A stretch of 64,000 nt of DNA from assembly GCA_030748735.1 (NCBI GenBank), contig JASMLK010000027.1, positions 1-64,000 on the forward strand. Reading direction: 5' to 3'. The notes under the pieces are model-generated. The model made no database searches, had not been told where the DNA came from, and was given only the letters and a program-made list of their open reading frames with translations. Within the stretch, counting starts at the first letter, position 1. Each line of letters begins with the position of its first letter. Below are positions 5,162 to 6,473 of the stretch, piece after piece. Source of the stretch: Myxococcota bacterium. Its GTDB lineage: Bacteria; Myxococcota_A; UBA9160; UBA4427. A program made the translations under genes and the position numbers.

Positions 5162-5181
5162 CGAAGCCGGTTCACGAAGAG

Positions 5182-5211
5182 CGACCGCTTCGCCGCGAGG
5201 CGGAGCGGTCG
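5182..5211. terminator. bidirectional terminator between convergent genes
   Basis: A 13-bp stem with one imperfect pair (CGACCGCTTCGCC / GGCGGAGCGGTCG) and a GCGA loop lies 20 bp after the mch stop and 4 bp before the end of the minus-strand CheX-like gene. It can serve both directions, although T tracts are weak. Confidence 0.6.
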
Positions 5212-5215
5212 TCCC

Positions 5216-6046
5216 TCACTCCGTGGCCAGCACCACGGAAGCACAGCCTTCACCGACCACGAGTTCGAACGCAATGCCGCCGTCGAGTGAGGCATCTCGC
5301 ACCGGCGGGCCGAGACTCACGTAGACATCGTCGCGTTCGAGGGCTGCGGCCACGTTGCCACATAGGACATTCAGGAACTCGCCGAGCCCGTCGTAGACAG
5401 AGTCGCTGTCGAGGCGGCCCTCGTCGATGCACGCGGTGGCCGCCGCGAGCTTGCGACCGAGGTGTTCGTCCGCGACGAGCGTCACCTGCAGGTTCGGCGG
5501 CCCTTCCATCCGCAAGCCGACGTTGTACGGAAACGACGCGAGCCTGCTGAGCGAAAGTCCGAACCCTGTCTTCATCTTCACTTTCGCGATGCGCAAGCAG
5601 AACTTCGGCAGCATGTCGAGCACGAGATGTGCCACCGGGTTGCCGTCGAGTTCGCCGGGGAGGGTTTGCACTTCGGCTTCGTAGGGAGCCTGGTCGGCCT
5701 TAAACTCGTCGAGCAGCCGCGGGAGTTGGTCGGGTTCGAGGCTGCCGAGTTCGACGAGCACTTCGCCGATCTGCACGCGGGTCTTTTGCTGGGTCGTGCT
5801 CACTTCGTCCAGCTGGGACTCGGTGAGCAGCCCGAGCGCGCAGGCGAGTTCGCCGAAGGGGCGGTCGCCGTTTCGTTGTTCGCGATTGATGCGGTCGGCG
5901 GCGGCGCGCGTGAGACAGCCGGCCTCGACCGCGATCTCGCCCAGCGGTCGGTTCTGGGCGTCCATGCGCAGGAGTGCTTCGCGCAACTGCGTGGCGTCGA
6001 TCTCACCCTGTTCGATCAGGAACTGCCCGAAGAATTTCACGCTCAT
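5216..6046 (-). CDS. MshEN-type repeat protein fused to a CheX-like phosphatase domain
   Basis: A 276-residue cytoplasmic protein with two parts. Residues 5-115 hold four repeats of about 29 residues, each of the form (F/P/I)GE/Q-x5-G-x-L/I-x(10): FFGQFLIEQG at 5, RPLGEIAVEAG at 33, RPFGELACALG at 62 and VQIGEVLVELG at 91. This resembles the c-di-GMP-binding MshEN motif of type II secretion and pilus ATPases. Residues about 125-276 match CheX/CheC-type CheY-P phosphatases and keep the catalytic pair in GEFLNVLCGN (E223, N226). The gene starts 4 bp after a receiver-only gene, its probable substrate. The repeat assignment rests on spacing and conserved G/E/L positions; nucleotide binding is inference. 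Confidence 0.75.
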   Translation of the reverse strand: MSVKFFGQFLIEQGEIDATQLREALLRMDAQNRPLGEIAVEAGCLTRAAADRINREQRNGDRPFGELACALGLLTESQLDEVSTTQQKTRVQIGEVLVELGSLEPDQLPRLLDEFKADQAPYEAEVQTLPGELDGNPVAHLVLDMLPKFCLRIAKVKMKTGFGLSLSRLASFPYNVGLRMEGPPNLQVTLVADEHLGRKLAAATACIDEGRLDSDSVYDGLGEFLNVLCGNVAAALERDDVYVSLGPPVRDASLDGGIAFELVVGEGCASVVLATE

Positions 6047-6050
6047 CGTG

Positions 6051-6473
6051 CTACTCCCCGCCTCCCTCGGCGCTGCGATGTTCGCGTTCGGTTTCGAAGA
6101 GCGCCTCCAGGATGCTCCGCTCGAAGGGCTTGCTGATCACCTGGATCGCACCGAGGCGGAACGCCTCTTCGGCCTTCGACGCCGCGCCCGCGAGAGACGA
6201 GAGCATCGCGACCCGCGTATGGGAGAAGTTCGCGTTGATCAGGCGCAACGCAGCGAGGCCATCCATGCCCGGCATCACGATGTCCAGGATCGCGAGGTCC
6301 GGTTGCACTTCGCGAATCACGCGAATCGCGCTTGCACCGTCGTTCGCCGTCCCGACGACCTCGACATCGTCGATCGAACCGATCAACTCCTCGAGCTGCG
6401 TGAGCACCACCCTGCTGTCGTCGACCAGGACGACCGAAAGGGGCTTGCTCGATATGGACTGCGCGTCAGACAT
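6051..6473 (-). CDS. CheY-like single-domain response regulator
   Basis: A 140-residue receiver domain with no output domain. The acidic pocket is D18-D19 (VLVDDS), the phosphoacceptor is D64 (AILDIVMPGMDG), the switch serine is S92 (MLSS) and the conserved lysine is K115 (ISKPF). The track ORF starts at 6998, but the true start is the ATG at 6473, because upstream residues overlap the divergent lyase gene and have no receiver similarity. It is the first gene of a two-gene operon with the CheX-like protein, so it is probably dephosphorylated by its neighbour. No kinase gene is nearby. Confidence 0.9.
   Translation of the reverse strand: MSDAQSISSKPLSVVLVDDSRVVLTQLEELIGSIDDVEVVGTANDGASAIRVIREVQPDLAILDIVMPGMDGLAALRLINANFSHTRVAMLSSLAGAASKAEEAFRLGAIQVISKPFERSILEALFETEREHRSAEGGGE

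Follow-up and report, generated by a model that had tools for sequence, protein, structure and literature searches.

The c-di-GMP motif of MshE-like proteins has been described as (R/K/L)LGxx(L/V/I)(L/V/I)xxG with a final glutamine and two leucines per motif which stack on the guanines (PMC11731258, PMC5013675). In MshE MshEN_N (5htl) and PilF GSPII-B (8pdk, 9gl5), two such motifs with a period of 29 residues form a four-helix bundle. The arginines of PilF GSPII-B are dispensable for binding (PMC11731258); in PilF, replacement of either glutamine by glutamate lowers the affinity 77- to 158-fold with binding at 0.5–1 µM remaining, and replacement of both glutamines abolishes binding. According to Wang et al. 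2016 (PMC5013675), substitutions at key motif positions have cost XpsE its c-di-GMP binding, MshEN is able to bind cGAMP, though weakly, and it occurs together with REC, HD-GYP, CheA and the phosphatase CheX. The MshEN-CheX architecture as such is therefore known, and the view of the preliminary description of the locus treated here that MshEN is unusual on a phosphatase is unsupported in that form. These fusions carry the same c-di-GMP-type motif on a CheX domain as the protein described below, and the main text of the source lists the association only. A tie between MshEN and a receiver-based pathway is likewise found in Bdellovibrio Bd2402 (same source), where, however, the domain is part of the response regulator and binding has been demonstrated, whereas in the present protein it resides on the phosphatase. 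A literature search for functional or experimental work on the MshEN-CheX fusion, in any member, found none, and apart from Wang et al. no paper of the collection searched mentions MshEN together with CheX.

The CheX proteins of T. maritima (1xko) and B. burgdorferi (3hzh) share fold and ExxN active site with the present protein, but stand alone as chemotaxis proteins and have no N-terminal part for ligand binding. From the CheX-CheY structure, roles of the CheX asparagine and acidic residue in catalysis have been described (PMC3035606). In Myxococcus, the orphan single-domain receiver EpsW is phosphorylated by the CheA-type kinase DifE (PMC4671073). To the association listed by Wang et al. 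2016, the present analysis adds that a receiver is the conserved partner, how far the unit is spread among phyla, that four repeats occur without MshEN_C, and that the motif has decayed in the Myxococcota clade.

Gene content and domain architecture of the locus

The window (the whole analysed stretch of 64,000 nucleotides) contains two genes arranged in tandem, with the receiver gene upstream and 4 nt between its stop codon and the start codon of the MshEN-CheX gene. The following features were assigned:

6051–6473, minus strand: single-domain CheY-type receiver of 140 aa without output domain (PF00072, 83.8 bits)
5216–6046, minus strand: 276-aa fusion of MshEN_N-type tandem repeats to CheX (ORF, profiles, AlphaFold, Foldseek)
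5963–6034, minus strand: repeat R1, residues 5–28 (FFGQFLIEQGEIDATQLREALLRM), with Met28 instead of the motif-end Gln
5876–5947, minus strand: repeat R2, residues 34–57 (PLGEIAVEAGCLTRAAADRINREQ), with Gln57 present in 42/42 aligned sequences and Ala50/Asn54 in place of the stacking Leu
5789–5860, minus strand: repeat R3, residues 63–86 (PFGELACALGLLTESQLDEVSTTQ), with Gln86 present in at least 90% of relatives
5702–5773, minus strand: repeat R4, residues 92–115 (QIGEVLVELGSLEPDQLPRLLDEF), with Phe/Tyr family-wide for the motif-end Gln
5219–5647, minus strand: CheX domain, residues about 134–276 (PF13690, profile matches to 1xko, 3hm4 and 3hzh, Foldseek)
5369–5380, minus strand: ExxN catalytic motif E223-F-L-N226, aligned with 1xko

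By domain identities, active sites and operon conservation at the sequence level, the two genes form a real, coherent signalling module. The preliminary description had given coordinates, lengths and residues of both genes correctly, and its accounts of a lone CheY-type receiver in front of the phosphatase gene, of four repeats of about 29 residues and of a CheX-type domain with intact E223 and N226 are borne out by the evidence presented below. Its statement that no kinase gene lies nearby holds apart from one 91-aa HATPase_c fragment at 473–748 on the minus strand (PF02518, profile positions 59–110, E=1e-9), which is either a remnant or an assembly effect; the next gene begins at 811, leaving no space for the remaining kinase parts. 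Directly 3' of the MshEN-CheX stop codon, a strong hairpin (5172–5222, minus strand; −28.8 kcal/mol, z −2.9) sits between convergent genes; it lacks a T run and is absent from the output of the terminator scan. A promoter scan and a viral fold search found nothing.

The receiver matches PF00072 with E=1e-23, and its phosphorylation site is intact, comprising the acidic pair D18 and D19, the phospho-Asp D64, the Ser/Thr position S92 and the lysine K115. The C-terminal part of the 276-aa protein exceeds the PF13690 (CheX) cut-off (31.8 vs 27 bits), as do 37 of the 42 relatives scanned. A family profile built from 42 members aligned residues 134–255 to residues 5–127 of T. maritima CheX 1xko, with E223 and N226 in register with the glutamate and asparagine of its ExxN motif, and also matched 3hm4, 3hzh and further CheX/CheC structures. 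Foldseek placed 13 CheX or CheX-like chains, including 3hm4 and 1xko, at top ranks (prob 1.00), and returned prob 1.00 also for the CheX-CheY complex 3hzh.

Four 29-residue MshEN-type repeats span residues 5–120. The 29-residue period in the first 121 residues yields a lag-29 self-similarity of +60 BLOSUM62 units, a score reached by none of 5000 shuffled sequences (mean maximum −41, sd 11). NF053729, the curated NCBIfam model for the c-di-GMP motif of MshE-like proteins, matches the protein with 66 bits (cut-off 38) and was likewise matched by all 42 relatives scanned. Phmmer searches of the PDB with the window protein found PilF and MshE, and the family profile finds MshE, PilF and PilB among structures. 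AlphaFold predicted eight helices in four hairpins followed by the alpha/beta domain of CheX (full protein: pLDDT 87.5, pTM 0.57, the latter rendering the domain packing unsure). In Foldseek, the repeats superimpose on MshE with c-di-GMP (5htl_B) at 0.8 Å over 56 residues (prob 1.00) and on PilF GSPII-B at 0.8–1.3 Å; modelled alone (pLDDT 93.3), they again have 5htl ranked first. In the fold search, MshE is matched with weak E-values (0.04–0.3), as the match is short, and these matches are therefore to be read jointly with the sequence profiles. Period, NF053729 match and superposition on 5htl_B thus agree on two 24-residue motifs 29 residues apart in a four-helix bundle.

The assignment of individual pairs to MshE depends on the method: identity is 28% for R1R2, 31% for R2R3 and 30% for R3R4, hmmsearch places MshE on R2R3 and hhalign on R3R4, and NF053729 scores R1R2 best (39.5 bits), followed by R3R4 (37.2) and R2R3 (31.3). 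Compared to MshE and PilF, the protein has four repeats instead of two, and lacks the ATPase and the MshEN_C subdomain. Absence of the latter follows from the lack of a match to PF05157, the Pfam MshEN model, which does match PilB and GspE of the same genome. In the genome's own PilB, PF05157 covers only the part after the motifs, so that this model would miss the repeat similarity.

Several minor matches were rejected. FumaraseC_C (PF10415; 28.9 bits, cut-off 32.5) was taken as a cross-hit of the helical repeat, since fumarases are among the weak fold matches of the repeats. The NCBIfam matches to EpsG/NfrB were far below cut-off and were likewise read as cross-hits of the helical repeat, given that NfrB carries an MshEN motif. 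DUF4388 scored 17 bits, below cut-off.

Distribution and conservation of the gene pair

The fusion recurs in related genomes. Matches were detected in half of a set of 61 genomes (that of the window plus 60 close to it), in 38 of the 379 genomes sampled from the phylum at E below 1e-20, and at 44 loci in a scan of named genomes from Myxococcota/Deltaproteobacteria, Geobacter and Desulfuromonadia, Nitrospirota and Auribacterota. The complete pair of receiver and MshEN-CheX gene recurs in Myxococcota, Desulfuromonadia and Auribacterota. Upstream DNA could be scored for 55 distinct members, of which 40 have a receiver gene directly in front. Most intergenic distances fall within −4 to +12 nt for the Myxococcota clade and 19–105 nt for the Geobacter-type clade; in many pairs, start and stop overlap by 1 or 4 nt. 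The catalytic positions DD/D/(S or T)/K are present in 40 of 41 paired receivers, the remaining one being incomplete. Among individual loci, an orthologue (L037, G003:C14) is frameshifted near the start of R2, with residues 1–43 and 36–275 in different frames, and three Nitrospirota members (L102–L104) retain ExxN without an upstream receiver gene.

Members with an adjacent receiver retain the ExxN motif in 39 of 40 cases, as opposed to 7 of 15 members without one (8/15 lost; Fisher p 4e-5). When relatedness is allowed for, the tree holds only 3–5 independent pairs and the link is not significant, so that the association of receiver adjacency with ExxN retention is suggestive only. Receiver and CheX distances correlate with r=0.92, a value which shared ancestry alone can produce. 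The sole receiver-linked member without ExxN (L048, G029; EFLT instead) is accompanied by a receiver without recognisable first half; judged from their sequences, both halves of this module look to have decayed together.

In ten neighbourhoods, by-eye reading of unannotated, mechanically called ORFs revealed no evident CheA/CheW/receptor cluster; one large ORF at L092 and one at L100 could encode sensor proteins. The genome of the window itself harbours three CheA clusters in trans, two of them with their own CheX or CheC, as well as flagellar genes (FliL, FliM-like, FliO, FliP) and c-di-GMP synthesis genes with eight GGDEF domains.

A candidate mechanism and its alternatives

We tentatively propose a two-gene module in which a receiver phosphatase is gated by a cyclic dinucleotide, a reading whose chances, taken as a whole, fall just short of even. 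The lone receiver would obtain its phosphoryl group in trans, with one of the CheA kinases of the genome as the most likely donor; this assignment is speculative and derives from the CheA clusters in trans and the precedent of EpsW and DifE, which together make a CheA protein the probable kinase. The CheX domain would then dock on the phosphorylated receiver and insert E223 and N226, leading to dephosphorylation. From the CheX-CheY structure, E223 would form a salt bridge to Lys115 of the receiver and N226 would orient the attacking water. Dephosphorylation of the partner receiver by the CheX domain is a well-supported prediction. The tandem MshEN_N helical bundles at the N-terminus would represent the part responsive to cyclic dinucleotides (c-di-GMP in the first place, cGAMP possibly), and the nucleotide would change CheX activity, dimerisation or access to the receiver. 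The messenger level would thereby be converted into the lifetime of receiver phosphorylation, and the receiver would in turn act on, for instance, the flagellar switch or a different regulator. Nucleotide control of the CheX phosphatase is plausible; speculative elements are ligand binding in the Myxococcota lineage, the direction of the effect, and the identities of kinase and output.

The ligand motifs themselves are incomplete, which, like the missing C-terminal MshEN subdomain, weighs against the proposal. The preliminary description had held loss of the arginine and glutamine contacts to count against its reading, and half of this loss is observed: the motif-start arginine (extended to Arg/Lys/Leu) is absent from all four repeats (F5, P34, P63 and Q92 instead), and the motif-end glutamine is lost from R1 (M28) and R4 (F115), so that R1R2 (M28/Q57) and R3R4 (Q86/F115) each keep one. 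MshE and PilF differ in both respects. In addition, the leucine stacking positions of R2 are occupied by Ala50 and Asn54, and, in this member, Ser83 within R3 is counted among the incomplete-motif residues. As PilF mutants with a single glutamine still bind and the double mutant does not, c-di-GMP binding by the window protein is possible, yet not to be assumed.

Comparison of the relatives traces the change at the end of R1 and those in R2 to one clade. In Geobacter-type, Nitrospirota and Auribacterota relatives, the final residue is Gln in 19/19 cases for R1 as well as for R2, and the first residue of R2 is Lys or Arg in 18/19. In the Myxococcota clade, including the window, R1 ends with Met in 20 of 21 members, R2 mostly starts with Ser, Thr or Pro, and its leucine positions are mostly Ala and Asn (N54 in 16/21, A50 in 12/21). 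The R4 motif ends with Phe or Tyr throughout. By these residues, the Geobacter-type relatives retain a fuller predicted ligand site, and direct c-di-GMP control appears less secure in the Myxococcota clade than the preliminary description had assumed.

Such conserved replacement of motif residues looks like re-purposing and, together with the precedent of XpsE (PMC5013675), agrees with repeats that bind no nucleotide in the Myxococcota lineage and serve as a module for dimerisation, docking or localisation, the phosphatase acting on the neighbouring receiver constitutively or under control of a protein. We consider this rather unlikely, since the family shows strong conservation of Phe6, Phe64, Gln57, Gln86 and the key glycines, one glutamine per pair in PilF still permits binding at about 0.5–1 µM, and R2 and R3 together retain both glutamines. 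These two, Gln57 and Gln86, are nearly fixed in the Myxococcota clade as well as in the other relatives, and are combined in the adjacent pair R2R3. A more specific version of dinucleotide gating, rather doubtful at present, is that of a widespread orphan receiver/phosphatase operon in which the dinucleotide gates dephosphorylation directly, so that a second messenger would reach two-component signalling independently of a kinase, and the ligand site was rebuilt in Myxococcota, either on R2R3 or with altered specificity.

An improbable alternative to the gated phosphatase is that CheX sequesters the phosphorylated receiver without fast turnover, or acts on receivers encoded elsewhere instead of on its neighbour. 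The three chemotaxis clusters of the genome, two with their own CheX or CheC, and the seven members which retain ExxN without an adjacent receiver would fit this, but ExxN retention beside nearly every receiver, with L048 and its degenerate receiver as the exception, speaks against it, as does the distance correlation within the limit set by shared ancestry. Least probable is recognition of another or asymmetric cyclic dinucleotide, e.g., 3',3'-cGAMP, in place of c-di-GMP, a notion in accordance with the weak cGAMP binding of MshEN (PMC5013675) and with the divergence of the two R1R2 half-sites from each other; at motif position 21 of R2, Geobacter-type members mostly have His and Myxococcota-type members Asn.

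If CheX is controlled by nucleotide binding, as in the gated phosphatase proposed here, the rate at which a phosphorylation signal is switched off would be set directly by the c-di-GMP level. A phosphatase, rather than a kinase, motor or transcription factor, would then be the point at which the two main signalling currencies of bacteria meet. As a small, soluble unit that is conserved in Geobacter-like bacteria, the gene pair lends itself to a direct test of this idea.

Other MshEN-type proteins encoded in the genome are PilB, GspE and a PilT-like T2SSE ATPase of 553 aa (L114, G000:C25), the N-terminal MshEN-type motif pair of which scores below the NF053729 cut-off. Weak own-genome matches on contig C144 were dropped; they are located in efflux-pump-like ORFs. 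A paralogue (L063, G000:C5, 845–1675) combines MshEN-type repeats with a CheX-like tail lacking ExxN, has no adjacent receiver and falls in a small clade formed by paralogues of this kind within the genus.
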